Notes under the pieces: generated by a model
The model's database searches: none
What the model saw: only the letters and a program-made list of their open reading frames with translations
Told to the model about the DNA's origin: nothing
Virus record (IMG/VR): IMGVR_UViG_3300042544_000425
Location: 1-29,000 of that record
Direction: 5' to 3' (one strand)
Source: a virus
DNA: 29,000 nt
Position numbers and translations under genes: made by a program
Shown: positions 2,828 through 19,935 of the stretch, piece after piece
How the letters are laid out: every line of letters starts with the position of its first letter
Numbering within the stretch: the stretch's first letter is position 1

Positions 2828-5800
2828 ATGGCACTGAATTTAAATGTCTCACCGTATTATGATGATTCTTATGATCCATTGAATGGTGCGATTGTAAATA
2901 ACTACAATAGAATTCTCTTTAGACCTGGATATGCAGTCCAGGCAAGAGAACTCACTGCTCTGCAGACCATTCTGCAAGATCAGATTGGCAGATTCGGTGA
3001 CCACATTTTCAAGAATGGTTCAGTCGTTCAAGGATGCGAGTTTAAACTTGATTCTGACAGAGCATTTGTTAAAATCGCAGACACAGGCGCTGATAATACT
3101 ACACTAGCAGACTATATTGGTGACACTGTAACAGGCGGAACAACAGGAATTACTGCAGTAATCCTAGATGTAGCAACTGGTACTGAGGCAGAACAACCAA
3201 ATTTAAAAACAATTTATCTTCGTTATACTGGCGGTGATGGCGAATCTACCGCAGTCCACTTTGCTGGTGGTGAAACTCTCACAGTAGATTCTGCAGTGGC
3301 AGGTAGAGATGGGGACACATTTGTCGTAGATGACACATACGACGAAGCAGAACCAACTAACAGTTACTGGGGTCTTGGTTGTGCGCTTACTGTTGATGAT
3401 GGTATTTTGTTTATTGACGGGAAATTCATAACCCATGCAGCGCAAACAATCATACTTTCTAAATATTCCAACCTACCAACTGTAAAAGTTGGATTCCAGA
3501 TTGTGGAAAATACTGTTTCTTCGGAAGATGATCAATATCTTCAGGATCCTGCAGAAGGATCCTTCAACTTTGCTGCTCCTGGTGCAGACAGATACCAAGT
3601 TTTAACTGCACTTGTTGCATATGAACCAACTGACACAATTCCTTCTACGTTTAACCAATTGGTTGATATTATCAACGGTGAAATTCAAAGAACATATACC
3701 ACAAATATCTACGGCGAACTTGGCAAGAACATGGCAAGGCGCACGTATGATGAATCGGGTAACTATGCAGTAAGACAATTCCCTGTTTTGATCAAAGAAC
3801 ATCTCAACGTAGATGGTAATAATGGGTTGCGTCTGTTAAACGAAGACGATCCAGAACGTGGCGGCAGTAAAGATCTACTCGCAGTTGGTCTCGAAGCAGG
3901 TAAAGCATATGTTCGTGGGTTCGAACACGAGACTTTCCAAACAGAATACGTTGTTGTTCCAAAAGGAAACACAACTGTTTCGGTGCAAGAAGCACCAATT
4001 AGCACTGCTTATGGTAACTATATTCTGGTCGATGAATTCTGCGGTCTGTGGGATCTTAACGGCGGTGATCGTGTAAGTCTCCGTGGCACAGCGCAAAGTG
4101 CTATCAGTGATGGAACATTCTCTGCTGCATCTGCTCCAGGATCAGAAGTTGGTACTGCTCGCATAAGGCAAATTGTTTACGAATCAGGAACTCCTGGAAC
4201 TGCAGCAGCACAGTATAGATTATATCTCTATGACATTCAAATGTCAAGTGGTGATTTTAAAGACGTTAAGGGTATTTACTACAACGATGCAACTGCCGAT
4301 GGTCATGCTGATATTGTTCTTGACACAAATGGAAATGCGGTTCTCCAAGAAACCAGTTTCAATAGATCTCTATTCAGATTTCCATCAAGAGCAACAAAAA
4401 CCATTGCGCCGAATGATGTATTTGACAACTCATTTATCTATACCAAAGAATTTGACGGGGAGCTTAATGCCTCGGGGCAAGTTACAATCACACTAAGCGG
4501 TGGTGAAACCTTCCCATATGATTCGTTTACCTCAACAATCATCAAAAACAACTTTACTATGGTGATGAAGGTAGATGCTGCAATCGATGATACAGTAGAT
4601 GTTCCTCTTCCTGCAGGTATAGTGGTCGATCTTTCTTCTGCAGGATTTACAAAACCCAACTCTCAAACCATCACAATCGATATTCCAGGTGTTCTTGTTG
4701 CTGGGTCAAAGGCAGTAAAACTCTATGTAAACGTTCAAACTGCAAATGCAAACCCTATCGAAAAGATTCTTCGTGAAGACCGTTATGTAGTCATCAACAC
4801 AAATACTCACCCATCAACAAGTGGTGGTACGTATTCGCTTGGTCTCTCAGATGTCTATAGAATTAAGAATATTTACACGTTCGCGCACACTACTCTCGAT
4901 GCTGACATCGCAATTGCGATAGCCGCGAATAATGCAACGGATATTGCTTCTTCGTTCACTCTTGATACTGGTCAACGTGACAATGAATATCGTAACGCTA
5001 AAATCATCAAGAAACCATCTGCTCCATCTCTCGTGAATAAAAAACTTGTTGTCAAGTTAGATTACTACACTCACGATGGTGCCGCTGCAGATGGAACTTT
5101 CTTCACAGTGGATTCATATCCGATTGATGATACTGGTGTTGATGCTGCGACAATTAAAACCCAGGATATTCCTATTTACGTATCGCCAACAACTGGCGAA
5201 TCGTTCGATCTTCGCGACACACTAGATTTCCGTGTTCGATTAGTTGATACAGCATCAAATGCTACAGCGGTTGGTAGTGCTACAACAAATCCAACTGAAG
5301 GCACTTCTATTTCGGCGCCATCGATTGGTATCACAAACCCTGTCCCTACTGAACAATTCACAACGGATCTTGAGTATTATCTTGGTAGAACCGACAGACT
5401 GATTATCGACTCTGAGGGTATCTTCAGTTCTATCTACGGAACTCCTTCGCTCACACCGTTGACACCAGCAGAACCTGAAAATGCGATGTCGCTGGCAATC
5501 ATCAACATTCCTCCGTATCCATCACTTGCTCCGAATGTCGCTAAGAGCGTAAATCGCCCAGACTATGGTGTATCATTCCGCACCATCGACAATCGTCGAT
5601 ATACTATGCGCGATATTGGTGTCCTAGAGCAGCGTATCAATCGTCTTGAATACTATACTTCTCTTTCGTTGCTTGAAAAGGCAGCAAGCGATCTTTCGAT
5701 TACTGACGGTGCAGGTCTTGACAGATTTAAGAATGGTATTCTTGTTGATGCTTTTACTGGTCATAACGTAGGTAACGTTTTTGATTCTGCATATCATATC

Positions 5801-8800
5801 TCTATCGATCCATCGAAGAAAGAGATGCGCCCTTTCTTCTATCTAGAAAATATTGACCTTGCGTTTGATTATGCGAATTCAACTAATGTCTATAAAACAG
5901 GCGATCTAATCACTCTCCCGTATGTCAATATTGAAATGACATCCAACCCTTCTGCCTCAAAACCAAGAAATTGCGTCGGCGAATTACTATTCAATTACAT
6001 CGGAAATATGGAACTAGATCCACCAGTTGATAACTGGACGGATACCGCACAACAACCAGATGTTAGCGTAAACTTCGACGGAAACTATGATGCATGGGAA
6101 ACCATGACAGATGCTTGGGGAACTCAATGGGGTGACTGGCAAGACGTTGTAACTGGAAGAACTGCAGTTGGACAGTCATCAGAAACTGTAGCAGGTAATA
6201 CTACACTACGTGGTGATACGTTCTTGCAGCAACAGACACAAGTTGTTACAACGACAATTGAACAGCGTCAAACTCGTCAGGGTGTTTCGCTTTCAGTAAC
6301 CCCAGAAACACAGACTCAACGAACTGGTGCTCGAGTAACTAATACTTCGATCATTCCGTTCATGCGTTCGGTGTCTATCACATTCATCGCACAAAGATTG
6401 AAACCTAACACCAGAGTATATCCATTCTTTGATGGTGTTGGTGTTTATGAGCACTGTCGTCCATTAGATTTTGATCCTGCTACTGATATCAAACCAACAG
6501 ATCCTGCTGCATTTTCATCATATGCTGATGGTAATTACGGAGATCCACTGATCACCAATGCTCAAGGTGTCTGTGTTGGTCAATTTAGAATTCCAGCAGG
6601 AACCTTTAGAACAGGTGATAAGAACTTCCGTCTGTGCGATGATCAATTCAATCGTGATGCGTTCATAACCACTTCATCGACTAAAACTTGGTCTGCGAAT
6701 GGACTATCACAAAATGTCCAAGACACAGTTATTTCGACCAGAGTTGCTAATATAGAATTGAATACAACATCTGATTCCAGATCAGTATTTGAAACTCAAA
6801 GAGCGGAAAACAGAATTGCTGATAGAACAGTTGGTGTTGTTCAAACAACAGTAAATAATACGTTTACTACAGTCAACAATATCACAAACATCGATAACAC
6901 TGTTACCAACGTAACAAATATCAATAATACCAACGTTACAAATATTACTCAAGATCCAGTAATTATTGATCGCGGTCCAATTGTTCTTCCGCCGCCGCCG
7001 CCGCCACCTCCGCCTCCGCCACCAGGAGTTACGGATCCGCCGCCACCGCCACAACCACCAGTGCTTCCTCCTGTCGAGATCTTCGAACCAGAGGCACCGA
7101 CACCAAATCCATGTGAACCAGTAACAACCTGCTGGGAAGAACAGGAATTCCAAATTAGTGGTCTTGGTGGTTTCGGCGGACTTGCCGAAGGAAGTTTTGA
7201 AACAATAATCACGCCTGCAGGATGTGCCACTGTCAATCCTTGTGCGCCTGTAGTTCGTGGTAGAGATCCTATTGCGCAAACTTTCTATGTTGAAGGTATG
7301 CCATTTGGTTGTTACGTTACTAACCTTGACATTTACTTCAGAACTAAGTCTTCGAGTGCACCAATCACTCTGCAGATCCGTGAAGTTGTGAATGGTTATC
7401 CAGGTGACAGGGTAATTCCGTTTGGTGAAGTAACACTAAATCCTGGTGCTGTTAGTGTCAGTGAAAATGCTACGGCAGCAACTACTTTCGTATTCCCATC
7501 ACCAGTATACCTGCAAAATAACACAGAATACTGCTTTGTTCTTCTCCCTGCAGGTAACAATCCAGATTACAATATCTGGGTTTCGGAACTTGGTGAAAAC
7601 GAACTAGGGACTGAAAACAGAATTTCTGAGCAACCACATATTGGTGTTCTGTTTACTTCTGCAAATAACAGATCGTGGACAGCATGGCAGAAGGAAGATA
7701 TTAAGTTTACCCTTCGTCGCGCAGACTTCGCAATCAACACGGTTGGTTCTTTGGTAATGAAGAACATGGATGTAGACTTCCTGAAATTCGATTCATTCTA
7801 TGATGGTAATTTTGAAGCAGGTGACACTGTTCATGGGTTCTCATTCAATATCACAAATCCAGGAAGTGGATATACTTCTGGAACAATTAGGCATACTCTC
7901 TCAGGCGGTGGTGCAACAACCAATGGTGTCGTTGACGTCACAATCTCTGGCGGGGCAGTAACAGACGTAGTTGTTGTAGCACCAGGAGCAGGTTATACGA
8001 GTAATCCAACCCTGACGATTTCTAGTGGTTCTGGTTCAAGTGCAGCAGTTACTGTTACGCTTAACAGAGGATTTATTAAGCAATACGATTCGCTCTATAG
8101 TGTCGGTAAGATACTAGTGACTTCTGGTAAGTTTACTGCTGGTGACGTTGTCGGCAGTGGTCCAACATACGCAGAAATTACTGAAGTTGAAAACAAGCAG
8201 TTAAACGTGCTTGAAACTAACATGGGTTGTATTGATCATACTCCTGCAACAATTTCTTGGTCAGTTGCTCCTACTGCAACTGGTGCAAGTGCGGGGGGTG
8301 CATCCTTCGAAGGAATCAATTTCGGGCAAGAATATGAATTATCATACGAGGCACAAGTTTACTCATACTCAAACGAGCAAGCAGATCTCGACGGTGATAA
8401 ATCGCTTACGGTGAGAGCAGGATTGATGACTCAAACATCAACTGTTTCTCCAGTAATTGATACTAGAAAGTGTTCGATTATTGCTATTGCTAATGACATC
8501 AACAATGTCACTACAAATGAAGATGGAAACAATGGTTCTGCGGCGTCGAAGTATATCTCTCGTCGCGTAGTTCTTGATGATGGTCAAGACGCAGAAGATT
8601 TGAAGGTATATCTGAGCAACAAGATCCCAACTGGATGCGGTGTTCAAGTTTATGGTAGATTCCAAAACGCAACTGATGCATCAAACTTTGATGATCTTGA
8701 CTGGATTGAATTGGTTTTAACTAATTCACCTCTTGACAGCGCAGCAAAATCTGGGTTTGTTGAGTATGAGTACACAATTCCTACCGCAAATAAAAACGCT

Positions 8801-8938
8801 GGTGTCTTAGAATACACAGTGGGGGGTGCTACCTTTAGTGGGTATAAATCTTTTGCAGTTAAAGTTGTTCTAACATCGTCAAACAGTTCTGTCGTTCCTC
8901 GTGTGAGAGAACTAAGAGCAATCGCACTACAGGTATAA
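2828..8938 (+). CDS. giant virion/baseplate protein, DUF4815-type
   Basis: A 2036-residue protein, the largest in the window. Its N-terminus ('SPYYDDSYDP', 'NRILFRPGYAVQARELTALQ', 'FGDHIFKNGSVV') is the signature I associate with DUF4815, a family of large tail/baseplate-associated proteins in marine T4-like phages. Further landmarks: residues ~917-1010 hold 'RDIGVLEQRINRLEYYTSL'; ~1338-1385 is an Asn/Thr/Val stretch ('NNITNIDNTVTNVTNINN'); ~1387-1415 is a near-pure proline linker. Residues ~1480-1640 form a beta-rich domain ('DPIAQTFYV', 'IYFRTKSS', 'NNTEYCFVLLP'). Residues ~1671-1745 repeat the 'GSGY' beta unit of the gp8-like protein. No membrane segment or enzyme motif is visible. It probably forms a long peripheral baseplate or fibre component; which T4 protein it replaces cannot be decided from sequence. 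Confidence 0.75.
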   Translation: MALNLNVSPYYDDSYDPLNGAIVNNYNRILFRPGYAVQARELTALQTILQDQIGRFGDHIFKNGSVVQGCEFKLDSDRAFVKIADTGADNTTLADYIGDTVTGGTTGITAVILDVATGTEAEQPNLKTIYLRYTGGDGESTAVHFAGGETLTVDSAVAGRDGDTFVVDDTYDEAEPTNSYWGLGCALTVDDGILFIDGKFITHAAQTIILSKYSNLPTVKVGFQIVENTVSSEDDQYLQDPAEGSFNFAAPGADRYQVLTALVAYEPTDTIPSTFNQLVDIINGEIQRTYTTNIYGELGKNMARRTYDESGNYAVRQFPVLIKEHLNVDGNNGLRLLNEDDPERGGSKDLLAVGLEAGKAYVRGFEHETFQTEYVVVPKGNTTVSVQEAPISTAYGNYILVDEFCGLWDLNGGDRVSLRGTAQSAISDGTFSAASAPGSEVGTARIRQIVYESGTPGTAAAQYRLYLYDIQMSSGDFKDVKGIYYNDATADGHADIVLDTNGNAVLQETSFNRSLFRFPSRATKTIAPNDVFDNSFIYTKEFDGELNASGQVTITLSGGETFPYDSFTSTIIKNNFTMVMKVDAAIDDTVDVPLPAGIVVDLSSAGFTKPNSQTITIDIPGVLVAGSKAVKLYVNVQTANANPIEKILREDRYVVINTNTHPSTSGGTYSLGLSDVYRIKNIYTFAHTTLDADIAIAIAANNATDIASSFTLDTGQRDNEYRNAKIIKKPSAPSLVNKKLVVKLDYYTHDGAAADGTFFTVDSYPIDDTGVDAATIKTQDIPIYVSPTTGESFDLRDTLDFRVRLVDTASNATAVGSATTNPTEGTSISAPSIGITNPVPTEQFTTDLEYYLGRTDRLIIDSEGIFSSIYGTPSLTPLTPAEPENAMSLAIINIPPYPSLAPNVAKSVNRPDYGVSFRTIDNRRYTMRDIGVLEQRINRLEYYTSLSLLEKAASDLSITDGAGLDRFKNGILVDAFTGHNVGNVFDSAYHISIDPSKKEMRPFFYLENIDLAFDYANSTNVYKTGDLITLPYVNIEMTSNPSASKPRNCVGELLFNYIGNMELDPPVDNWTDTAQQPDVSVNFDGNYDAWETMTDAWGTQWGDWQDVVTGRTAVGQSSETVAGNTTLRGDTFLQQQTQVVTTTIEQRQTRQGVSLSVTPETQTQRTGARVTNTSIIPFMRSVSITFIAQRLKPNTRVYPFFDGVGVYEHCRPLDFDPATDIKPTDPAAFSSYADGNYGDPLITNAQGVCVGQFRIPAGTFRTGDKNFRLCDDQFNRDAFITTSSTKTWSANGLSQNVQDTVISTRVANIELNTTSDSRSVFETQRAENRIADRTVGVVQTTVNNTFTTVNNITNIDNTVTNVTNINNTNVTNITQDPVIIDRGPIVLPPPPPPPPPPPPGVTDPPPPPQPPVLPPVEIFEPEAPTPNPCEPVTTCWEEQEFQISGLGGFGGLAEGSFETIITPAGCATVNPCAPVVRGRDPIAQTFYVEGMPFGCYVTNLDIYFRTKSSSAPITLQIREVVNGYPGDRVIPFGEVTLNPGAVSVSENATAATTFVFPSPVYLQNNTEYCFVLLPAGNNPDYNIWVSELGENELGTENRISEQPHIGVLFTSANNRSWTAWQKEDIKFTLRRADFAINTVGSLVMKNMDVDFLKFDSFYDGNFEAGDTVHGFSFNITNPGSGYTSGTIRHTLSGGGATTNGVVDVTISGGAVTDVVVVAPGAGYTSNPTLTISSGSGSSAAVTVTLNRGFIKQYDSLYSVGKILVTSGKFTAGDVVGSGPTYAEITEVENKQLNVLETNMGCIDHTPATISWSVAPTATGASAGGASFEGINFGQEYELSYEAQVYSYSNEQADLDGDKSLTVRAGLMTQTSTVSPVIDTRKCSIIAIANDINNVTTNEDGNNGSAASKYISRRVVLDDGQDAEDLKVYLSNKIPTGCGVQVYGRFQNATDASNFDDLDWIELVLTNSPLDSAAKSGFVEYEYTIPTANKNAGVLEYTVGGATFSGYKSFAVKVVLTSSNSSVVPRVRELRAIALQV

Positions 8939-9644: not shown

Positions 9645-11954
9645 ATGAATCCTCTAAAGGTCAAGGCATCAGGATCCCCAATCACTTCTGCAAACATCAG
9701 CGGTTTGCAGACCATGACCGATGCAGAGGTAAAAAATTATATTGCCAATGTTATTACAGAAAAGTTTGCTTCAGTAACAGATGGCACTGGTACTGCAGAA
9801 TTAAATATCACAACAAATAACTCAGGCGCAGGAACTTCGATCGGTACGTTTGTCGATACGACAAGAAACGAAACGATCGGAACGCATCCTGCTACTGGCG
9901 CAGTTTCTACGACAACATATACTGTTAAACAGGTTACTGCTGCCGCAACTGAAAATATTACCAACAGACCACTAGCATGGGATTCTCGTCTAGAAGAAAT
10001 GACAGATGGTGACATTGATAGCACAATGGATCTCTGCGTCGAGGCGATGGTCGCGGAATCATCATATACTGCTGGTCAATACAAACTCCAAGCAACTGCA
10101 CCATCAGGTGGAACTTGGGTTTCGCGGTATACAATAACAGATACAGCGCAAGGTGGAAACACTGTAACATATCTGTGGCAGAAAACAGTTGCTTCTTCAG
10201 CACCAACAGCGGATCTCACGCCACTAAAAGTGTTTAATGGTGGTAATTGCAAGCAGATGACTGAAGCAGAAATTGAACAGATGCTTCCAGTCTTCAGAAA
10301 TAGAATTATTGAAACTGGTATCGGAACATATAAAATCCAAACGGATGCGCCTAGTGGCGGTACTTGGGTTCAAACAGGAAATACATTCGCGGATACTCGT
10401 GAACAAGTAACACCACAGAACTATGCAGGAAACTTTACTGGAAATTTCACTGGTAACTTTTCTGGGAATTATGTCGGTACAGCAAACTACTCAGGTTCTA
10501 GAACCTATTCGGGTAACTATGCAGGAAATTACGGCGGAACTTTATTCTTTTCTGGTTCTAGAAACTATTCAGGTAATTACTTAGGGTCTGCCAATTTCTC
10601 TGGAAATTATGGAGGTTCTAGGAACTATTCTGGTAATTATGTAGGTAATTACGGCGGAACTTTATTCTTTTCTGGATCTAGAAACTATTCGGGCAATTAT
10701 GCAGGAACTGGAAACTTTGCTGGACCGCAGAACTATTCTGGAACCTACACTGGAACTGGAAACTTTGTTGGACCGCAAAATTATAGTGGTTCTAGAACCT
10801 ATGAAGGAAACTACCTCGGAACTGGAAACTTTGCCGGAACAGCAAACTACTCTGGATCTAGAACCTATTCGGGTAATTATCTTGGATCCGGAAACTTTAC
10901 TGGAACAATATCGTATTCCGGATCTAGAAACTATGCTGCCAACTATCTTTCGCCACCATCAACTTATATTGGAGTCTATGCTGGTTCGAGAAACTATGCA
11001 GGATTTTATGCAGGTCCAGGCACAAATTATAGTGCATTCTTCATGGCAGAATTTTATTCAGGAGGTCCATATTCTGGACAAATTGGATATGCTGGTACAC
11101 CGTACACAATATATACTTGGGTAACTGCAGGCGACACAGTTGCGTATTTTCAGACACCGTACTTTTCGGGTCCAGGAGGATTTTACTCAGGTCCAGGATT
11201 CCAGGCAAGACAATTTATTCCAGGTATCGGTTGGTTCCCCGAATTTTATTCAGGCGGAGAATTCGCTGGTCCTGGTCCTGGATACTCAGGTTCCAGAAAT
11301 TATACTCCAACTTTTCCAATTGCTGGATATCTCGGTAATTATTCAGGTCCAGGTATAAACTATTCTGGTTCGAGAAACTATGCTGGTAACTACTTAGGTT
11401 CTGGAAACTTTGCGGGGACAGTATCTTATTCTGGTTCAAGAAACTATGCTGGTAACTATCTTGGTTCTGTAAACTATTCTGGTCCACAGAACTATGGTGG
11501 TTCAAGAAACTATTCGGGCAATTATGCAGGAACTGGTAATTTTGTTGGTCCACAGAACTATTCTGGTAACTATCTTGGAACTGGAAACTTTGCTGGACCA
11601 GCATCATATTCTGGATCTAGAACCTATTCAGGAACTTATGCTGGCGGTGGAAATTTCTCTGGAACTTACTCCGGATCTAGAACGTATTCTGGCAATTATC
11701 TAGGTAGTTATTCTGGTCTTGCACCGTATTCTGGTTCTAGAACCTATTCTGGAACCTATGCTGGTGGCGGAACCTTCTCGGGAACCTACTCTGGATCTAG
11801 AAATTACGCAGGACTATATAATGGACCAGCAAATTATTCAGGTAATTATTCCAGTGCATTCTCGGGGAATTTTACTGGAGCGTTTTCTGGGGCAACAATA
11901 CAAGCAACTAAAGAAACAGTGTCATCTGTTAAATTGTGGATAAGGACGGCATAA
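9645..11954 (+). CDS. Gly/Asn/Tyr-repeat fibre protein A
   Basis: A 769-residue protein. Residues 1-258 contain three related segments (about 1-100, 108-190 and 191-258). Each has a 'PL-x..' lead, a helix beginning 'MT[DE]xE/D[IV]', and a strand pair of the 'Y-K-[LI]-Q-x-x-APSGGTW' kind. The two later copies are clearest; the first keeps 'MTDAEV' and 'TFVDT'. From residue 261 to ~748 the protein is a repeat of Gly-x-(Tyr/Phe)-x and Gly-x-x-x-(Tyr/Phe)-x units. It is interrupted at ~434-572 by a Pro/aromatic-rich segment with irregular repeats. The last ~20 residues are non-repetitive and end 'SSVKLWIRTA'. There is no enzyme motif or signal peptide. It is a probable elongated virion fibre. Similarity to the next gene over the whole length shows tandem duplication. 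Confidence 0.75.
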   Translation: MNPLKVKASGSPITSANISGLQTMTDAEVKNYIANVITEKFASVTDGTGTAELNITTNNSGAGTSIGTFVDTTRNETIGTHPATGAVSTTTYTVKQVTAAATENITNRPLAWDSRLEEMTDGDIDSTMDLCVEAMVAESSYTAGQYKLQATAPSGGTWVSRYTITDTAQGGNTVTYLWQKTVASSAPTADLTPLKVFNGGNCKQMTEAEIEQMLPVFRNRIIETGIGTYKIQTDAPSGGTWVQTGNTFADTREQVTPQNYAGNFTGNFTGNFSGNYVGTANYSGSRTYSGNYAGNYGGTLFFSGSRNYSGNYLGSANFSGNYGGSRNYSGNYVGNYGGTLFFSGSRNYSGNYAGTGNFAGPQNYSGTYTGTGNFVGPQNYSGSRTYEGNYLGTGNFAGTANYSGSRTYSGNYLGSGNFTGTISYSGSRNYAANYLSPPSTYIGVYAGSRNYAGFYAGPGTNYSAFFMAEFYSGGPYSGQIGYAGTPYTIYTWVTAGDTVAYFQTPYFSGPGGFYSGPGFQARQFIPGIGWFPEFYSGGEFAGPGPGYSGSRNYTPTFPIAGYLGNYSGPGINYSGSRNYAGNYLGSGNFAGTVSYSGSRNYAGNYLGSVNYSGPQNYGGSRNYSGNYAGTGNFVGPQNYSGNYLGTGNFAGPASYSGSRTYSGTYAGGGNFSGTYSGSRTYSGNYLGSYSGLAPYSGSRTYSGTYAGGGTFSGTYSGSRNYAGLYNGPANYSGNYSSAFSGNFTGAFSGATIQATKETVSSVKLWIRTA
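10425..11889 (+). repeat. GNYx / GSRNYx codon-level repeat tract A
   Basis: About 1.4 kb of near-tandem 12-bp and 18-bp units encode GNYx and GSRNYx-type peptides. DNA repetition is also strong: GGTTCTAGAAAC-like 12-mers recur many times, so the hexamer TCTAGA is unusually frequent. Such a tract could change length by recombination and is a place where assemblies may collapse. Confidence 0.85.
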
Positions 11955-11957
11955 AAC

Positions 11958-13826
11958 ATGGTTTTAAGAAATAAATCTTCGGCGACACCTGTTTCTGCTG
12001 TAAATTGGCAGGGTCTACAACAGATGTCTGTCGATGAAGTAAAGAATTATATTGCACAAACTCTGACAGTTTCTTTTGGTGCAAACTCGGATGGTACTGG
12101 TACTGCTGAAATTAACATCACAACAAACAACAGTGGATCTGGTACGTCCATTGGAACATTCGTTGATACTGATCGCCAAGAAGCGACAGGAACTCATCCA
12201 GCAACTGGTGCTGTTGATACTGTAACATATACTGCCAAACAGGTTACTGCCGCTGCGACGGAAAATATTACTAATCGTCCCTTGAAATATGACGATGGTA
12301 TCAAGGAAATGACTGACGGTCAAATTGATACCGAAATTCTAGACTATGCAATCAATGCGATGATCACTGAGTCTACATATGCTGCAGGACAATATCGCCT
12401 TCAACCAACAGCACCATCTGGTGGAACATGGGTTGCTCGTTACACATTGACTGACGTTGCCAACGGTGGAAACACCGTAACATATCTATGGCAAAAAACT
12501 GCTGCTACTACTCTCTCAGACTCGAATCTTAAACCGCTAAAACTTATCGATACCAAAGATGTCAAAGAAATGTCATCTTCGGAAATTCTACAGATGCTTC
12601 CGAGTTTCAGAAACAGAATTATAGACACGGGAATCGGCACATATAAGGTTCAATCTTCAGCACCAGTAAGCGGTACTTGGGTTGAAATGGGCAATGAGTT
12701 TGCTGATACCAGAGAGCAAGTAACTCCACAGAACTATTTGGGTAACTTCTCTGGCAACTATCTCGGTACTTTCTCAGGGTCAAGAAACTATACTGCAAAC
12801 TATGCTGGAACATATCAGGGTAACTTTGCAAATAATTTCAGCGGTGGTTATGTTGGACCAGCGACCTATTCCGGAGCATATTCTGGAGCATACGCAAACA
12901 ACTTTACGGGTAACTTTGTTGGACCTGCAAACTATTCTGGGACTTACTCACAAGGGTTCTCAGGAAATTATGTTGGAAACTTTGTAGGGACTGCTGGTTA
13001 TTCTGGAAATTATACAAGAAACTTCAGCGGTAACTACACTGGTTTTTATGCTGGTTCGAGAAACTATGCTGGTAACTATGCTGGGAACTTCAGCGGTAAC
13101 TATCTAGGAACATATTCTGGTTCGAGAAACTATGCTGGAAATTATGCAGGCAACTACCTTGGCACATATTCAAGAAACTTCTCTGGAACATATCTAGGTA
13201 ACTTCTCGGGTAACTACCTCGGAACATATACACTATTCTTCGGTGGTTTCGTTGGCGGTAACTTTGCTGGCAACTACCTCGGAACTTATGCGAGCAACTT
13301 CACAGGAAATTATCTTGGTTCATTCAGCGGTAACTACTTAGGAACGTATGCTGGATCGAGAAACTATGCTGGTAACTACGCAGGTAACTACCTCGGAACA
13401 TATACTGGGTTCTTCTCAGGATCTAGAAACTATGCTGCAAGCTATGCTGGAACATATCTCGGGAACTTCTTAGGATTCTTCACAGGAAACTATGTTGGTC
13501 CAGCAACCTACACTGGAACATATTCGGGCACTTATACTGGGTTCTTCTCGGGTAACTATCTCGGAACTGCAACATACACAGGTAACTACACTGGGTTCTT
13601 TACAGGATTTTATACTGGATTCTTCGCAGGAACTGCAACATACACAGGTAACTACACTGGATTCTTTACGGGTAACTACACTGGTTATTATTCAGGTTCT
13701 AGAAACTACGCAGGAAATTATGCCAGTAACTTTAGCGGAACATACTCGCAAAACTTCTCAGGTGCAACAGTAATTGAAACTAAAGAAACTGTATCGACAA
13801 TAAAACTTTGGGTTCGCACCACATAA
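11958..13826 (+). CDS. Gly/Asn/Tyr-repeat fibre protein B (paralogue of A)
   Basis: A 622-residue paralogue of the preceding gene, starting 3 bp after its stop. The N-terminal ~258 residues align closely without gaps visible by eye ('EVKNYIAQ', 'TTNNSGSGTSIGTFVDT', 'AATENITNRPL', 'TAPSGGTWVARYTLTD', 'FADTREQVTPQNY'), including the three-segment internal repeat. Residues 261 to ~601 are almost uninterrupted 4- and 6-residue Gly-aromatic units (GNYL, GTYS, GNFS, GSRNYA). The C-terminus 'SGATVIETKETVSTIKLWVRTT' keeps the non-repetitive cap of fibre A. The repeat tract is shorter and more regular than in A and lacks A's Pro/aromatic interruption. It is probably a fibre subunit, perhaps partnering A. 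No host-binding domain can be pointed to. Confidence 0.75.
   Translation: MVLRNKSSATPVSAVNWQGLQQMSVDEVKNYIAQTLTVSFGANSDGTGTAEINITTNNSGSGTSIGTFVDTDRQEATGTHPATGAVDTVTYTAKQVTAAATENITNRPLKYDDGIKEMTDGQIDTEILDYAINAMITESTYAAGQYRLQPTAPSGGTWVARYTLTDVANGGNTVTYLWQKTAATTLSDSNLKPLKLIDTKDVKEMSSSEILQMLPSFRNRIIDTGIGTYKVQSSAPVSGTWVEMGNEFADTREQVTPQNYLGNFSGNYLGTFSGSRNYTANYAGTYQGNFANNFSGGYVGPATYSGAYSGAYANNFTGNFVGPANYSGTYSQGFSGNYVGNFVGTAGYSGNYTRNFSGNYTGFYAGSRNYAGNYAGNFSGNYLGTYSGSRNYAGNYAGNYLGTYSRNFSGTYLGNFSGNYLGTYTLFFGGFVGGNFAGNYLGTYASNFTGNYLGSFSGNYLGTYAGSRNYAGNYAGNYLGTYTGFFSGSRNYAASYAGTYLGNFLGFFTGNYVGPATYTGTYSGTYTGFFSGNYLGTATYTGNYTGFFTGFYTGFFAGTATYTGNYTGFFTGNYTGYYSGSRNYAGNYASNFSGTYSQNFSGATVIETKETVSTIKLWVRTT
12738..13761 (+). 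repeat. GNYx / GTYx repeat tract B
   Basis: About 1 kb of imperfect 12-bp and 18-bp units. Four-residue units (GNYL, GTYS, GNFS, GFFT) dominate. Six-residue units (GSRNYA, GPATYT, GTATYT) are inserted every few units. All unit lengths are even, so glycines and aromatics keep the same beta-strand face. Confidence 0.85.
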
Positions 13827-13892: not shown

Positions 13893-14348
13893 ATGACTAC
13901 CAATCGCACTATTGAAAATCCTTACTGGGCGAACAAAGAAAAACAACATGTCATCGCAGAGTTCGTGTATCCTGATACGGGTAAACGAGCAACTGCATCG
14001 ATTATGAACGACGGAACTAACCGTGACTTTGATGAGTTAATGAAGAAGTTTAGTATTGAGCAAATTGATGCTAATACCAAGAAACGGTTTGATGACCGTA
14101 ATCAACATATCAAGCATAACATTGAACGTCAGAAGGTTGACAAGACTCGTATGCAGCAAGAGCAACTGTTCGCTGCCAAACTGGATGCATTCGAGATCGA
14201 TCTAATTAAGTCTTCAAAGAATCGCGAGTTGAAGTCCAAGATCCGTAAAGCAAAGAACATTATGGAAGTTACTGCTTATACTGTCATTCTCCTACAACAA
14301 GAAGAAGCGAATGCTGTTATTGTTCGAGAATCAGTCGATGCAGAATAA
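13893..14348 (+). CDS. hypothetical protein downstream of fibres
   Basis: A 151-residue protein with a strong start (GGAG 6 bp before ATG) behind a promoter-like sequence. Residues ~1-60 look like a small beta domain ('ENPYWANKEKQHVIAEFVY', then 'ASIMNDGTNRDFDELMKKF'). Residues ~60-130 are highly charged and helical, rich in Lys/Arg/Glu/Gln, consistent with a coiled coil. I do not recognise a family. Its place directly after two fibre genes and its beta-plus-helix layout resemble fibre-assembly chaperones, but that is positional inference only. Its last 11 bp overlap the next gene. Confidence 0.6.
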   Translation: MTTNRTIENPYWANKEKQHVIAEFVYPDTGKRATASIMNDGTNRDFDELMKKFSIEQIDANTKKRFDDRNQHIKHNIERQKVDKTRMQQEQLFAAKLDAFEIDLIKSSKNRELKSKIRKAKNIMEVTAYTVILLQQEEANAVIVRESVDAE

Positions 14349-15033
14349 TGGTTTTCTTTACGTCGCAACAGTAAGAAAAGGTTACTATAGAGCAGCAAGA
14401 AATTCTGCTATATCTCTACGCGACTTCTATCCTGATGCACATATCACATTCTTCACACATGAGGAATGGGTGCAACCAGATGATTATGAAATCTTCGACA
14501 CTGTCATTACTGAAAATGTCCCACGGGACAAGCGAGCAAAACTGTGGGCGCTTGATCAAACTCCATACGATCTGACAGTTTACATGGATTGCGACACCGA
14601 AGTCGAACATGAAGATATCCAAAAGATTTTCGACCAGATCCCAGAGGATATCGATATCATCTTCACTGCCAATCGTCCATATAACGCAGCACTGACTAAG
14701 TTATCTGATACGGAAGAAATGACTGAGCACTGTGGGTTGTTCGTCTATCGAAATAATGAACAAACATTAAACCTTATGCGTGCATGGTATGGTGAGTATT
14801 GGGAGCAGAATAAACCAGGATGGGATCGTAAACATTATCCCGAATCTGCGCTACAGTGGGATACCTTCACAATGTGGAGACTTCTGAATCATTACGATTT
14901 TGGTGTTAAGACTGCCAGATTCCCTGATCCAGATGCTAGGTGGAACTTTGTTTCCGGATATAAAAAAGAAGAATTACAGGGGCAACCAGTAGTGATTTAT
15001 CATTACACAATTCCACATTCTTTACTAAGTTAA
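14338..15033 (+). CDS. glycosyltransferase-like protein (GT-A, DxD)
   Basis: A 231-residue protein from the ATG at 14338; an upstream in-frame ATG at 14311 would add nine residues that lie inside the previous gene. The N-terminus 'FLYVATVRKGYYRAARNSA' plus 'SLRDFYPDAHITFFT' is a Rossmann-type nucleotide-sugar binding half. 'AKLWALDQTPYD' then leads to 'VYMDCDTEV', a DxD motif (Asp84 and Asp86) that in GT-A enzymes holds the metal and UDP/GDP-sugar. Late residues 'GLFVYRNN', 'WDTFTMWRL' and 'VVIYHYTIPH' fit the acceptor side and a terminal metal-binding His. No membrane segment is visible, so it probably acts in the cytoplasm. Donor and acceptor are unknown. It is only distantly similar to the four minus-strand transferase-like genes. 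Confidence 0.75.
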   Translation: MQNNGFLYVATVRKGYYRAARNSAISLRDFYPDAHITFFTHEEWVQPDDYEIFDTVITENVPRDKRAKLWALDQTPYDLTVYMDCDTEVEHEDIQKIFDQIPEDIDIIFTANRPYNAALTKLSDTEEMTEHCGLFVYRNNEQTLNLMRAWYGEYWEQNKPGWDRKHYPESALQWDTFTMWRLLNHYDFGVKTARFPDPDARWNFVSGYKKEELQGQPVVIYHYTIPHSLLS

Positions 15034-15044
15034 ACAGGACAAGC

Positions 15045-15722
15045 ATGTTACAATTTACAAAATCAGTTTCTAAAGAACTAAGCGATATTCTAGATCCATT
15101 CACAGAATGGTTCTTCGCCCAAAATGATCAGCATCTTGTGTTGGGTCCAGAAGATATGCAAGAAAAGCGTCGCGGTGGATTGACAGTCGACACTGCTACC
15201 GATGAACAATATCTAAACCATATCGTTGGTAAGGGCGAACGACATGTCGGGTTTCCAGATGTAGCATGGTGTACTGACATGTCACAGGCACACGGACAAC
15301 CATGGTTCCCTTCTGAATATGGCAGAAGGCAACAAGAAACCAATAGAGAACTGATCAGTTATCTCGGCGCTAGAAACAATGCTGTGTTTACTTACTATCC
15401 CGAAAATGGTTTCATGGGATGGCATACCAACTGGAATGCATCAGGATACAATATTCTGATCACATATAATGCAGAAGAAAATGGTGGATACTTCCGCTAC
15501 TTAGATCCAGTAACAAAAGAAATCGTTACTATGGTGGATCCTGTTGGTTGGTCATGTAAGGTTGGATATTTTGGTGACCGCAGCGATCCTAATAAAATTG
15601 TTTATCACTGCTGTGGTAACTCTGCAAAGAGATTAACATTAGGTTATGTTGTGCCGCATCTAGAAATTTGGCGCTCAATGATTGAAGATATTACTGGCGA
15701 GGATGCTTCTCACTTCGGTTAA
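15045..15722 (+). CDS. 2OG-Fe(II) oxygenase-like protein
   Basis: A 225-residue protein with AGGA 5 bp before ATG. The C-terminal half carries the double-stranded beta-helix pattern of 2-oxoglutarate/Fe(II) dioxygenases: 'VFTYYPENGFMGWHTNW', 'YNILITYN', 'GGYFRYLDP' and 'IVYHCCGNSAKRLTLGYVV'. The expected metal triad HxD...H appears as His127-Thr-Asn129 ... His188, with Arg196 placed for 2-oxoglutarate binding. The first acidic ligand is thus Asn, which could alter or abolish iron binding. Such oxygenases hydroxylate protein side chains, nucleic acids or small molecules and are common in marine T4-like phages. It follows a transferase-like gene by 11 bp and overlaps the convergent minus-strand gene by 32 bp. 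The substrate is unknown. Confidence 0.7.
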   Translation: MLQFTKSVSKELSDILDPFTEWFFAQNDQHLVLGPEDMQEKRRGGLTVDTATDEQYLNHIVGKGERHVGFPDVAWCTDMSQAHGQPWFPSEYGRRQQETNRELISYLGARNNAVFTYYPENGFMGWHTNWNASGYNILITYNAEENGGYFRYLDPVTKEIVTMVDPVGWSCKVGYFGDRSDPNKIVYHCCGNSAKRLTLGYVVPHLEIWRSMIEDITGEDASHFG

Positions 15723-16326
15723 TCTTTTCACGTTCTTTATGCTTTGCCAATAGTTCTTCAAGGATAGTTAAACTTTCGTGCATCTTTTCAATCTCATCTA
15801 ACATTTTTGGAACGGCAACTGTTGCTTGGTTAATAATTGCTTGTTCATAGTTTGCACGTGGTACGGTAGCAAGTTGGATTCTTCTGCGTCTAAAGTAATC
15901 TTTTATTCTACTGAGTAGAGAAGGTTTTCTTGCTTCTACCATATTCAACTGAGTAGTTTTTTGGTCAGTTGCCTGTTGTCGGGTCTTTACAATTTGATCT
16001 TCTCGTGCTTTTTCTGCTGCCTCTTTTTCGCGAATAAGTTTTTGGTTTTCTTCTCGTAAACTTTTCAACTCGGCAGAAATTCTAGATTCCTCTTCTGCTT
16101 TCTTTCGCTGCAATTCTTCATATTTTTCTTGTGCAATTCTTTCCTTCTCTAGTTCTTCTGGAGAAGGTTCATTGCTCACAATTTCTTCTTCTAGATTGCC
16201 CTCTATCCATTGTTCCGCGACTACTTCCTCAGGTGGAGAATCCATCCAGGGTGGAGGCGGTGGTGGTACTAATGGTTCAGGTATATAATCTTGCGGTGGA
16301 GGTGCGACAATCCTTGCTCTTGCCAT
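15691..16326 (-). CDS. Pro-rich N-terminus, coiled-coil hypothetical protein
   Basis: A 211-residue protein, last gene of the minus-strand cluster. The start ATG lies 1 bp after the stop of the methyltransferase-like gene, with AGGGAAG upstream. Residues 9-35 are Pro-rich ('APPPQDYIPEPLVPPPPPPW'). Residues ~35-60 are acidic. Residues ~55-130 form a Glu/Lys/Arg-rich coiled coil. Residues 140-150 are basic ('IKDYFRRRRIQ'), and a second helix (~180-205) ends the protein. There is no enzyme motif or signal peptide. The shape is that of a scaffold, adaptor or structural rod. Its final codons overlap the convergent oxygenase gene. I do not recognise a family. Confidence 0.6.
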   Translation of the reverse strand: MARARIVAPPPQDYIPEPLVPPPPPPWMDSPPEEVVAEQWIEGNLEEEIVSNEPSPEELEKERIAQEKYEELQRKKAEEESRISAELKSLREENQKLIREKEAAEKAREDQIVKTRQQATDQKTTQLNMVEARKPSLLSRIKDYFRRRRIQLATVPRANYEQAIINQATVAVPKMLDEIEKMHESLTILEELLAKHKEREKINRSEKHPRQ

Positions 16327-16327
16327 A

Positions 16328-16987
16328 TCATTTCTTCCCTATTACCATGAATCGATCAAAGTTTACCTTACCATCCCAAGACCAGTAGGACTGTTCGATC
16401 TTACCTTCGTAAAAAACATCAGTAACTCCAATATTCTCGATGTGCTCTTCGATCGTTGGTACGCAATTAATACCATACATTTCTTTGAATACGTTAGATG
16501 ACTGGCATGCAAAGATACAATCTGGATTTGCTGTCGTCATTTTCTTCAAAGGATACATGGTCTCACAACAAAGAGAAATGACAACATCTGTTTCTAATGC
16601 ATTAATGTCATGATATGCAAAAGGAATATCCCAGTTGATGTGATTGAGTTCGATGCCTCTATCATTATTATAGTAACGGTTGAATACCTTTGATAGTTCT
16701 AGTGCATCTCTGTCGATATCGATCAAGTTGATTTTCTTAACATTTAGATTTTCACACAGAAGCGGAACCAGCGGAAATCCTAACCAAGAATTTAGAATAG
16801 TAATATTCAATGGATCGGGGTCTTGAGTGACTTCCTGAAGATTTTCAACCAACCAGATAGCAGCATCCATTGTATTTGGATTCATAGACTTACGAAAATC
16901 CTCGTGCTTCCACGGCATCTCGTGTGCAATCTTTTCTAATCCATCGCCCCAATTTCGGTAATTATTCAAATAGTTATAGTTTAACAT
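16328..16987 (-). CDS. SAM-dependent methyltransferase-like protein
   Basis: 219 residues from the ATG at 16987, which has GGAAAG 8 bp upstream; the in-frame ATG at 17011 has a poorer site. 'NITILNSWLGFPLVPLL' (residues ~61-77) resembles a loosened motif I loop. 'INLIDIDRDALELSKVFN' (~86-103) resembles the acidic strand-2 end that holds the SAM ribose. 'TDVVISLCCETMYP' (~130-143) fits motif IV. These fit a class I Rossmann methyltransferase, though motif I lacks the usual GxGxG. It overlaps the upstream transferase-like gene by 14 bp. Its companions suggest it methylates a sugar or a glycosylated product, but the substrate cannot be read from sequence. Confidence 0.6.
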   Translation of the reverse strand: MLNYNYLNNYRNWGDGLEKIAHEMPWKHEDFRKSMNPNTMDAAIWLVENLQEVTQDPDPLNITILNSWLGFPLVPLLCENLNVKKINLIDIDRDALELSKVFNRYYNNDRGIELNHINWDIPFAYHDINALETDVVISLCCETMYPLKKMTTANPDCIFACQSSNVFKEMYGINCVPTIEEHIENIGVTDVFYEGKIEQSYWSWDGKVNFDRFMVIGKK

Positions 16988-17660
16988 CTTGTGGTCTTTC
17001 CATTGAATCATATAAGCAAATAAGTGGTTCTTCGCGGATAACTTGTTCTCTCACATCTGTTGGCCAAATATATCCGTAGTTGTAACTATACACCCAACCA
17101 TCTGGGAAAAAATTAATCTTTAGCAGACGTTCTCTCTGATGACCAAATAGATTGTCGAGTCCTCGATAATAATAAAACATCTGGTCGGGATAATCCCTGA
17201 CGAATTTGGTAATCTTATCGATATCTAATCTGTCGTTCCATCTCAGAACACTAGAATTGAGATCCGTATATTTGTGCGGAATATCCTTTGTGTCTGTTTT
17301 CATTTTCTTCATGTTGTGCCAGTGGGTACGGACGAACGTCAATTTATCCACTGTATCGTAATCTACAATACAGTCAATATTCTGTTGGATCTCAATATCC
17401 AAATCTAAAAATAATTTTTCACCTTGCTGCCTAATTATCCTGCGATCGAATAAATGCAGTTTGTTCCACCATTTCTCGTAGTAGTTATTTTCTGGTAAAG
17501 GGATAACAGTAATTTCTGGATTTAGATCTAGTGGATGTTCAGTTAAGCAGTAAAAATTGAAATCTGTTGTTATGTGTTCACGGCATTGATCAAAAACACG
17601 GTTGACATGTTCTGGACCATATTTGCCACCCCACTTTACTGTGTAAATATTAATCATCAT
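16974..17660 (-). CDS. glycosyltransferase-like protein, paralogue 4
   Basis: 228 residues from the ATG at 17660, which forms an ATGA overlap with the upstream stop; the next codon is also ATG. It shares the cluster's scheme: 'IYTVKWGGKYGPEHVNRVF', 'FNFYCLTEHP', 'YEKWWNKLHLF' and 'KLFLDLDIEIQQNID' with Asp86-x-Asp88 as DxD. These are followed by 'DLNSSVLRW', 'GWVYSYNYG' and 'PLICLYDS'. The layout fits a GT-A nucleotide-sugar transferase acting in the cytoplasm. It is the most divergent of the four minus-strand copies together with the first. Donor and acceptor are unknown. Confidence 0.68.
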   Translation of the reverse strand: MMINIYTVKWGGKYGPEHVNRVFDQCREHITTDFNFYCLTEHPLDLNPEITVIPLPENNYYEKWWNKLHLFDRRIIRQQGEKLFLDLDIEIQQNIDCIVDYDTVDKLTFVRTHWHNMKKMKTDTKDIPHKYTDLNSSVLRWNDRLDIDKITKFVRDYPDQMFYYYRGLDNLFGHQRERLLKINFFPDGWVYSYNYGYIWPTDVREQVIREEPLICLYDSMERPQDVKL

Positions 17661-18475
17661 ACATTCCAATGCTCTAAAAGATCAGGGTCGACGAGCGACT
17701 CTTGCTTCACTTTACCTCTGCTGTTGTCCTGAAATGGAAGTAAGTCAACATTAAACACACAGAGGATACAGTCCTTTCTATATATTCCTACTTCTAAGTC
17801 GCCTTCGTGCCAGTTGCGACCGCGATTGTATGAGTAGGCGAATGTGCTTGGGAAGTGTGCCCAAAGTGGAGTATCACTAAAGTCACCCCAACGCCAACTG
17901 TGATAGTTGTCAGTTCCATCTGTAAACGTGAACCAAATACGTTCTTGGTGTTCTAGAACATCTTGCCAGATGCACTCTGTCTGATCATCCGACCACACCA
18001 TGCAACTACCATTAGTATATGCCCCGTGTGCTAACTTGAAATTGCGAGACTTCATGGGACGTGGATCCTGCCACCAAGAGCGCAACTTGGTAGGATTCTC
18101 TAGGTCATAGGTGATGATTGGCGATAAGTCGTTCTGAATAATTACATCCAGATCGAAGAATACAAATCTGCCAGTTGGTTTATCTTCTGCGAAGTTGTGG
18201 GTATTGAAGATAAAAGTCTTTGGTCGATCCCAGCAACGTGCCATGCCATATTTAAAATCCTCAGATCCGAACCAGTATTTCGGATGGATGTCGGGAATGT
18301 CTGGAAAGTCAATTACTTTAATTTCAGCGTCAAACCCTTCACTATTGTCTGTGTAGCAATAGAAGTGAAACTCAAAATTATCTGGAGTATGTTTCTTTGT
18401 CATTCGATAAAGACGATTGACAAACTCCGCAGAGTATTTCGTCCCCCATTTACAACAGACGTAATTAACTCTCAT
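17657..18475 (-). CDS. glycosyltransferase-like protein, paralogue 3
   Basis: 272 residues from the ATG at 18475, chosen because it overlaps the upstream TGA as ATGA and begins at the shared motif. Landmarks are 'NYVCCKWGTKYSAEFVNRLY', 'FYCYTDNSEGFD', 'IHPKYWFGSEDF' and 'RFVFFDLDVIIQNDL' with Asp108-x-Asp110. Then come 'TNGSCMVWSDD', 'GTDNYHSWRWGDF', 'TFAYSYNRGR' and 'CILCVFNVD'. It is very close in plan to the gene upstream (both have PKYWFG, NSHNW/NTHNF and DNYH-W), so these two are the most recent duplicate pair. GT-A type sugar transfer is inferred from the DxD and fold pattern only. Confidence 0.7.
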   Translation of the reverse strand: MRVNYVCCKWGTKYSAEFVNRLYRMTKKHTPDNFEFHFYCYTDNSEGFDAEIKVIDFPDIPDIHPKYWFGSEDFKYGMARCWDRPKTFIFNTHNFAEDKPTGRFVFFDLDVIIQNDLSPIITYDLENPTKLRSWWQDPRPMKSRNFKLAHGAYTNGSCMVWSDDQTECIWQDVLEHQERIWFTFTDGTDNYHSWRWGDFSDTPLWAHFPSTFAYSYNRGRNWHEGDLEVGIYRKDCILCVFNVDLLPFQDNSRGKVKQESLVDPDLLEHWNV

Positions 18476-19230
18476 TCGCAGTTCCATAATCTAATAATGT
18501 TTTCGTCTAAACAGTCAGATAATTCTTCCTGTTCTCTGGCGGATGGATGTGGAACATTGTCTGTGTTGAACAAACAGATCTTAGCATCTGGTCGAAACTT
18601 AAATCGTTTGACATCGTCGGGATGATGCTTGCCTCGATTCCAAGAATAAATCCAACCACCTGGAATATCTTTCCAGAAATCTCTCTGCCTCCAGTAATGA
18701 TAGTTGTCACTTCCCTTAAAGAAAGTTTTGAATACGGATTCTGAATTACTTAAAACATCTCTGTAAATGTGTTCGCATGATTTTCCAGGCCAAAGCATCA
18801 TACTGGAGTTAAAAAAAGTTCCGCGAATCTCAATAAACAATCTGTCGTGTTTCTGAGATTCTGGTTGCCAACGGCATTGAATGATACGAGGTTTCTGCGC
18901 AAGTTCTTCTATGTCAGATATATCTTCTTGGATTACTACATCAAGATCTAAGTAGCACCAGTTGCCTTCATATCCTAACCAGTTGTGTGAGTTGAATACT
19001 AAGAACTTTGCTCGATCGAAACAGAAGGTTTCTTTACCAAACCAATATTTCGGATGTAGAATACCATCGTCTGGTATTGGTGCAGTATCGCAAATTAAAC
19101 CATCGGTATCATCAGTATAACATGTAAATGTGAACAGGTTGGGGTAGTTCTTCTTTACCATGTTGTAAAGATTATTCACATATTTGGCGGGATACTTATC
19201 ACCCCACTTAATGCATACGAAGTTCATCAT
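18472..19230 (-). CDS. glycosyltransferase-like protein, paralogue 2
   Basis: 252 residues; two consecutive ATG codons at 19230 and 19227 both give sensible starts, and the gene overlaps the upstream coding end by 20-23 bp. Motifs in order: 'NFVCIKWGDKYPAKYVNNLY', 'TCYTDDTDGL', 'LHPKYWFGKETF', and 'NWCYLDLDVVIQEDI' with Asp95-x-Asp97. They continue with 'TFFNSSMMLWPG', 'GSDNYHYWRQRDF', 'GWIYSWNRGK' and 'ICLFNTDN'. The conserved DxD after a hydrophobic strand and the 'TDD' near residue 40 are typical of GT-A nucleotide-sugar enzymes. Partner genes on both sides are homologous, so the array probably arose by repeated duplication. Confidence 0.7.
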   Translation of the reverse strand: MMNFVCIKWGDKYPAKYVNNLYNMVKKNYPNLFTFTCYTDDTDGLICDTAPIPDDGILHPKYWFGKETFCFDRAKFLVFNSHNWLGYEGNWCYLDLDVVIQEDISDIEELAQKPRIIQCRWQPESQKHDRLFIEIRGTFFNSSMMLWPGKSCEHIYRDVLSNSESVFKTFFKGSDNYHYWRQRDFWKDIPGGWIYSWNRGKHHPDDVKRFKFRPDAKICLFNTDNVPHPSAREQEELSDCLDENIIRLWNCE

Positions 19231-19885
19231 ATTCTTTATCTGCTCCAGGAAACTGATCTAATCCATTTAATAATGCTATGGTATAACTTGGTCTATACCA
19301 GAAAGATTCATTGTGATCATCTATGCCATAATAGTCTGCGCCATATACGAACGAATATATCTCACCTTTCGGAAAGTAATTAAATCTAAAATCTTCGTGC
19401 CACAAAAATCTATCATCACCAAAGTATTTAACCATGTAGTAATCAGAGTCGCGCTCGAAGTGTTCCCATATATGTTTGACAGTTCCATCTTTCCACATCA
19501 TCACACTTGAGTTGTAGTTACTCAAGTAGCGCATACCATGAGTCTCTCCGACATGATCAGGAAACTCTTTATTCTTCCAATAAGTATACGCGATTGTTGG
19601 GTGAATGTCAAGGTAATTCCATAGATGATCAATATTATTTTGAATACGAATGTCTAAATCCAGATAAAGAACATCACCAAATCCACGTTGACTGAACATC
19701 CAAATCTTATACCAATGACCTTCTATATCATCTGGTAACGGCCAAGCAACAACAATTGGATCTAATCCTGTCGGATCGTCGGTAAAACATACGTAGGTAT
19801 ACTTCCTACCAGTGTCATTTACTATTCTGTTTACGTCCGCAGCAGAATATTTTTCACCATATTTCAGCATCAAAATCGTTTGCAT
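19208..19885 (-). CDS. glycosyltransferase-like protein, paralogue 1
   Basis: 225 residues from the ATG at 19885. A longer in-frame start at 19975 would run back into the divergent gene at 19936 and adds no family sequence, so it is rejected. Motifs: 'ILMLKYGEKYSAADVNRIV', 'YVCFTDDPTGLD', 'HWYKIWMFS' and 'VLYLDLDIRIQNNID' with Asp76-x-Asp78. They continue with 'SNYNSSVMMW', 'DDRFLWHEDF', 'GEIYSFVYG' and 'IALLNG'. It is the first gene of the minus-strand unit, behind a TATAAATT element. It fits a GT-A type transferase; similar genes are scattered in marine T4-like phages. The acceptor is unknown. Confidence 0.7.
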   Translation of the reverse strand: MQTILMLKYGEKYSAADVNRIVNDTGRKYTYVCFTDDPTGLDPIVVAWPLPDDIEGHWYKIWMFSQRGFGDVLYLDLDIRIQNNIDHLWNYLDIHPTIAYTYWKNKEFPDHVGETHGMRYLSNYNSSVMMWKDGTVKHIWEHFERDSDYYMVKYFGDDRFLWHEDFRFNYFPKGEIYSFVYGADYYGIDDHNESFWYRPSYTIALLNGLDQFPGADKEYDELRMH

Positions 19886-19900
19886 AGTATTCTCATTTAT

Positions 19901-19908
19901 TATAAATA
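19901..19908 (+). promoter_or_regulatory. T4-type late promoter
   Basis: An exact TATAAATA lies in the 50-bp divergent gap. By T4 spacing the transcript would begin near 19914, ~22 bp before the ATG at 19936, with AAGGG as ribosome binding site. It reads into the adhesin/fibre module. Confidence 0.65.
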
Positions 19909-19917
19909 TTACCGTAT

Positions 19918-19925
19918 AATTTATA
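19918..19925 (-). promoter_or_regulatory. near-consensus late promoter for the minus-strand cluster
   Basis: On the minus strand this reads TATAAATT, one mismatch from the T4 late element. A transcript would start near 19912, leaving a ~27-bp leader with GAGAAT before the ATG at 19885. It nearly abuts the opposite-strand late promoter, so the two units may be co-regulated or compete. Confidence 0.4.
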
Positions 19926-19935
19926 AGGGTTCCGA

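Follow-up and report, generated by a model that had tools for sequence, protein, structure and literature searches.

Mirror-symmetric glycine/aromatic repeats in two tandem phage tail fibres suggest a self-pairing hairpin needle

Two adjacent fibre genes (positions 9645-13826, both on the plus strand) in a virus record (IMG/VR IMGVR_UViG_3300042544_000425, positions 1 to 29,000; the whole of this 29 kb stretch is referred to here as the window) encode proteins built largely from glycine/aromatic repeats, raising the question of what kind of fold such a long and regular chain would adopt. An original prediction had located the repeats at 10425-13761, which fits the repeat regions delimited here (amino acids (aa) 260-749 of fibre 1 and aa 260-602 of fibre 2), and had suggested a long beta-helix or stacked beta structure with one continuous aromatic ladder. 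The genes belong to a T4-like tail cassette, in which a gp8-like baseplate wedge gene (1176-2813) and the gene for a 2036-aa DUF4815/VrlC-type protein (2828-8938) are followed, in order, by genes for a small virion protein, fibre 1 (769 aa; 9645-11954, + strand) and fibre 2 (622 aa; 11958-13826, + strand), the latter two as given in the open reading frame (ORF) listing. The closest records to the 2036-aa protein come from phages of alpha- and betaproteobacteria (32-37% identity).

A search of viral contigs recovered 66 loci related to the fibres, and fibre 1 lies directly upstream of fibre 2 wherever the relatives' loci extend that far, usually with a gap of 1-9 nt or an overlap of 19 nt. Sequence searches of Pfam and the PDB with both fibres returned nothing, PHROGs yielded a lone sub-threshold match (fibre 2 to phrog_38842, E 0.06), and no description of these repeats was found in the literature. 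Phage C48C1 (Kyanoviridae, OQ984149) is the sole named phage with a relative covering most of the fibre; its 3232-aa hypothetical protein is related to the fibres in an N-terminal segment, at 27-31% identity, and shows the two-residue alternation described below, but is far longer and carries Arg on the Gly/aromatic face. Synechococcus phages of the S-RIM2 type give a weak match confined to the repeats. As in the window, their repeats (G-N-x-T) belong to a structural protein whose gene lies downstream of one for a giant structural protein, but Val/Leu stand in place of the aromatics.

The two fibres share an N-terminal domain (9645-10418 in fibre 1; aa 1-258, 11958-12731, in fibre 2), the two being 65% identical across aa 3-296 in fibre 2 numbering, and the fibre 1 domain is 83-93% identical in relatives. 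In fibre 2, the domain segments aa 97-186 and 187-258 are mutually similar (score 68 against a shuffle maximum of 40); there is perhaps a third similar segment (score 45, shuffle maximum 44), the segment type being ...EMxxxEI...GxYxxQxxAPxxGTW. In fibre 1, the domain is followed by a first repeat arm (aa 260-434; 10422-10946), an irregular centre rich in Pro, Gly and aromatics that is the presumed tip (aa 435-572; 10947-11360) and differs among relatives (40-87% identity), a second arm (aa 573-749; 11361-11891), and a conserved C-terminal strand (11892-11954; 85-100% identical in relatives) ending in KETVSSVKLWIRTA. Fibre 2 is laid out similarly, with arm 1 (aa 260-426; 12735-13235) and arm 2 (aa 432-602; 13251-13763), as delimited by repeat and mirror analysis, flanking the motif FFGGF (aa 427-431; 13236-13250), presumed to be a hairpin tip, and with a C-terminal strand (13764-13826) that is conserved in comparison with relatives and ends in KETVSTIKLWVRTT. 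All of these features are on the plus strand.

The premise that every repeat unit has an even length was borne out throughout fibre 2 and in both arms of fibre 1 (aa 260-434 and 573-749), but breaks down in the central 138 residues of fibre 1, where many steps are odd. When the repeats were parsed programmatically for odd exceptions, the spacing between successive [YF]xG anchors was even in 89% (fibre 1) and 94% (fibre 2) of cases, compared with ~45% in composition shuffles, and the apparent odd spacings of fibre 2 trace to GFF/GFY doublets and GG. Likewise, the expectation that Gly and Tyr/Phe occupy one face holds for fibre 2, which shows no change of parity across 343 residues (260-602) and in which 148 of the 172 positions on this face are G, Y or F (the remainder being mainly R and A); it fails for fibre 1 as a whole, in which parity flips at the centre and the arms differ. 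Strict two-residue alternation and the Gly/aromatic face also hold in relatives at 43-96% identity. Pooled over 74 non-redundant ORFs, the even spacings 4, 6, 8 and 10 occur 2848, 843, 541 and 155 times, respectively, and the odd spacings 3, 5, 7 and 9 occur 32, 85, 124 and 64 times. Insertions and deletions within the repeats of fibre 2 relatives are likewise mostly even (1201 versus 105 odd in pairwise comparisons, whose counts are not independent), with peaks at 22, 44, 66, 4 and 12 residues. Lys and Arg fall almost exclusively on the aromatic face (1297 versus 12), the aliphatic residues mostly on the opposite face, and the aromatics are the sole bulky hydrophobics. The repeats are indeed unlike collagen-like or pentapeptide repeats, as had been proposed, since the units are 4 and 6 residues rather than 5 or G-x-y triplets and match no Pfam family. 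In a set of very long relatives (L001:12355-22053, L060, L062, L064 and L065), Arg shares the Gly/aromatic face (e.g., TRTRVSAY, STRTSTR) while the two-residue alternation is kept, and in these Arg-rich proteins one face carries the basic residues (916:10) and the opposite one most of the acidic residues (426:41).

Although the 4- and 6-residue units had been described as following each other in mixed order, their arrangement is periodic: fibre 2 is a 22-residue super-repeat and fibre 1 consists of coils of 20 and 22 residues that start with GSR[NT]Y. The fibre 2 block, G[SPT][RA][NT]Yx-GxYx-GxFx-GxYx-GxYx (6+4+4+4+4), comprises 22 and sometimes 26 residues. Eight of the 11 spacings between six-residue units in the window's fibre 2 are exactly 22, a count that none of 20,000 shuffles of unit order reached (maximum 5), and the same spacing accounts for 262 of 358 in the fibre 2 family; identity at lag 22 is 0.46-0.67. 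Comparison of the coils with one another shows saturation of synonymous codons (0.59 observed, 0.54 expected). This indicates both that the coils are not fresh duplications and that the pattern is maintained by selection at the protein level.

Beyond this periodicity, both fibres are mirror-symmetric about their midpoints, a feature absent from the original prediction. In the window, the fibre 2 arms around the FFGGF-like motif measure 169 and 170 residues. Relatives of fibre 2 fall into 20 distinct arm-length types, ranging from 49/47 to 279/280, and the motif is at the midpoint in 19 of these; all but one type have arms within 4 residues of each other. Over 28 sequences, the lengths of the two arms co-vary (r = 0.998), with a mean difference of 2.1 residues versus 60.9 after permutation. 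The sole fibre 2 relative with unequal arms (L046, 7980-9461; 91/111) is possibly an intermediate in a change of arm length. In fibre 1, it is the spacings between GSR[NT]Y motifs that are mirrored, running 20, 20, 20, 38, 22, 22 in arm 1 and 22, 22, 38, 20, 20, 20 in arm 2. A mirror of like kind is present in L003, L008 and L042, and in less regular fibre 1 relatives such as L035 the midpoint again gives the best register, though a weaker one. Compared with the window, both arms are shortened alike in L008 (by 22 residues per arm) and L014 (by 20). Among the Arg-rich relatives, the most distant show no clear mirror symmetry.

Folding the sequences at the midpoint places unlike residues opposite each other. 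The window's fibre 2 gives 64 Gly:aromatic versus 3 like pairs, which none of 2,000 unit shuffles matched, and relatives give ratios of 117:3, 91:3, 90:3 and 29:1; the arms of fibre 1 give 56:7. Unit-shuffle nulls fall short of the observed pairing ratios except in L059, whose arms (49/47) are too short for significance alone (131 of 2,000 shuffles), and in L003, which at the tested register gives like pairs instead (0:58); the exact pairing register is uncertain by 2-4 residues because such shifts score almost equally within a four-residue pattern. The six-residue units also find partners of their own type in the opposite arm: GSR faces GSR and G-x-A faces G-x-A in 106 of 109 instances, where the null reaches at most 78, and the offsets are mostly 0 for R:R and mostly 4 for A:A. 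The arms were also considered as a direct duplication, which for fibre 1 fits more poorly than the mirror register (best direct register 33:16 versus 56:7). Since neither duplication nor inversion of DNA can yield a mirror at the amino-acid level, selection for cross-arm pairing is implied. A glycine opposite an aromatic residue across antiparallel strands is reportedly a favourable pair, an observation attributed to Merkel and Regan.

The mirror about the midpoint makes antiparallel pairing of the two halves the most likely arrangement, and as judged from sequence the pattern most likely belongs to a fibre that pairs with itself as a hairpin, not to a one-way beta-helix. A one-way helix with one continuous aromatic ladder, as first suggested, is thus not implied by the sequence, though a wound form is possible given the 22-residue period and a model of a single arm (see below). 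The explanation that probably accounts best for the data is a beta-hairpin needle whose two ends sit at the base and whose centre forms the tip, with a Gly:aromatic zipper between the arms. The alternation, equal arms, mirror pairing and type matching are features of the sequences themselves, from which one may infer a hairpin rather than pairing between chains, a trimeric state, an extended geometry and a receptor role for the centre. The N-terminal domain would form the base, from which the long first arm would lead outward to a tip at the exact midpoint. That tip would be a short turn of the FFGGF type in fibre 2 and, in fibre 1, the variable module of 138 residues rich in Pro, Gly and aromatics. 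The second arm, equal in length, would return antiparallel, and the conserved C-terminal strand would end at the base. Along the arms, each Gly would face a Tyr or Phe of the opposite arm residue by residue, and GSRNY and G[PT]A[NT]Y units would each pair with their own kind; the even unit lengths would let each residue keep its face in both arms of such a hairpin, and the mirror arrangement would hold the arms in register. If the T4 gp37 tip is a guide, three hairpins, making six antiparallel strands as in the gp37 homotrimer, may associate into a thin needle that displays its centre to the host surface, where the variable centre of fibre 1 may bind the receptor.

This arrangement has a precedent in the long tail fibre of T4, in which the gp37 stem has equal arms of 50 residues (882-931 and 960-1009) on either side of the tip, with both termini located at the knob (PMC9603124); the C-terminal receptor-binding tip comprises domains D10-D11 (Bartual 2010, described in PMC9603124). 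When the mirror test was applied to gp37, four of the six histidines of arm 1 were in mirror positions, as were some of the HxH motifs; for this solved structure the signal of the test is thus consistent. The window's fibres resemble the gp37 tip as phage tail fibres with equal arms around a central tip, a proposed return of the chain that would leave both termini at the base, as in gp37, and a C-terminal strand after the second arm. They differ in having no His in the repeats of either fibre (gp37 has HxH pairs and 14 His from residue 861 on), in the Gly:aromatic zipper, in the length of their arms (47-280 residues, reaching 5.6 times the 50 of gp37), and in the occurrence of paralogous fibres as a tandem pair. 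Sequence and profile comparisons detected no homology to gp37 (BLAST E 3.2; hhalign probability 0.1), and a relationship through the C-terminal strand, suggestive by eye, was not above chance in most members. The fibres may therefore be regarded, by analogy, as acting like a gp37-type needle without detectable gp37 homology.

An extended needle leaves the 22-residue period unexplained, and it is this period that favors a wound hairpin. The rod would then be short and thick instead of a long needle, its arms either coiled together (two-start) or each forming a beta-solenoid of 20-22 residues per turn. An AlphaFold model of the L063 fragment, which contains arm 2 only, is a 22-residue solenoid (mean pLDDT 73, 80-87 in the middle) with strands of ~20 residues that are interrupted at 22-residue intervals by the G[PST] of the 6-mer. 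A one-way solenoid is known from the ice-nucleation protein (PMC10727499), which likewise has an even-length repeat (16 residues), stacked tyrosine and Arg-rich coils, but has another consensus and no mirror-equal arms described. The L063 model had been taken as an answer in itself until the mirror symmetry showed that the modelled fragment is a single arm; without arm 1, correct pairing is impossible in such a model. Fibre 1 moreover mixes coils of 20, 22 and 38 residues, and a Foldseek search of the PDB and viral models with the L063 arm gave nothing below E 0.001. A wound form is a less likely, though quite possible, alternative. The mirror could also serve two antiparallel copies of the protein rather than a hairpin within one chain, since any antiparallel self-pairing requires the identical mirror and the alignments fit both. 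However, this would place N-terminal domains at both ends of the rod and bury the variable centre of fibre 1 midway along it, and the conserved Gly-rich FFGGF suits a turn, as does the hairpin precedent of gp37; pairing between copies is accordingly improbable.

Still less probable is an interdigitated triple-stranded beta-helix with Gly-Asn corners, like that at the C-terminus of T4 gp5. The G-[ND] followed by alternating residues recalls the gp5 octapeptide, with Gly at position a and Asn/Asp at b and alternating faces (PMC3004832), and the GN[VL]T repeat of the weakly related S-RIM2 matches gp5 chains (E 0.002-0.1). The gp5 helix, however, is an intertwined trimer running one way and built on an aliphatic repeat of 8 residues (VxGxxxxx), with no mirror symmetry described, whereas both fibres lack a Pfam family (the gp5-type helix being PF22178) and have a dominant period of 22, not 8; the Gly/aromatic repeats themselves match nothing in the PDB or Pfam. 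Analogies with the gp5-like helix and with pentapeptide repeats were set aside, as both leave the equal arms unexplained. The idea of a largely disordered or sticky low-complexity chain, patterned by repeat slippage, could draw on the composition and on the full-length AlphaFold model of fibre 2, which has a mean pLDDT of 39 and is too weak for use, but it is scarcely credible given a register kept over 343 residues, synonymous saturation and mirror-matched lengths.

A hairpin needle is thus a kind of structure already known, and what is unusual here is a testable sequence code. On balance, it seems reasonable to suppose that a zipper code (Gly:Tyr/Phe, GSRNY:GSRNY and G-x-A:G-x-A) sets the register in which two antiparallel strands align along roughly 50-280 residues, and that fibre length evolves only when both arms gain or lose matching stretches at mirror-related places. 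If so, the fold, tip and length of an otherwise unannotated fibre family could be read from sequence, and very long beta-hairpins would have a simple self-pairing code, open to testing and of possible use in fibre design. How the two arms change length together would then become a sharp evolutionary question, and the mirror test may bring to light further hairpin needles in phage fibres where structure prediction misses them.

Several ORFs downstream of the fibres were also noted. Directly after fibre 2 is a 151-aa ORF (13893-14348) of the size of a fibre chaperone; family searches with it found no match, and its similarity to the 'tail assembly chaperone' of C48C1 is unconvincing. It is followed by an ORF that looks glycosyltransferase-like by eye (MDCDTE; 14311-15033) and one with an H...H...R pattern resembling 2OG oxygenases (15045-15722). 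Pfam and PHROG searches were empty for both, as was a PDB search for the second, and the two might act as fibre modifiers. Six minus-strand ORFs of 211-276 aa, none with a confident Pfam match, occupy 15691-19975, and a further tail-fibre-like ORF at 23098-24468 contains a 153-bp DNA repeat in 2.8 copies with 73% matches.
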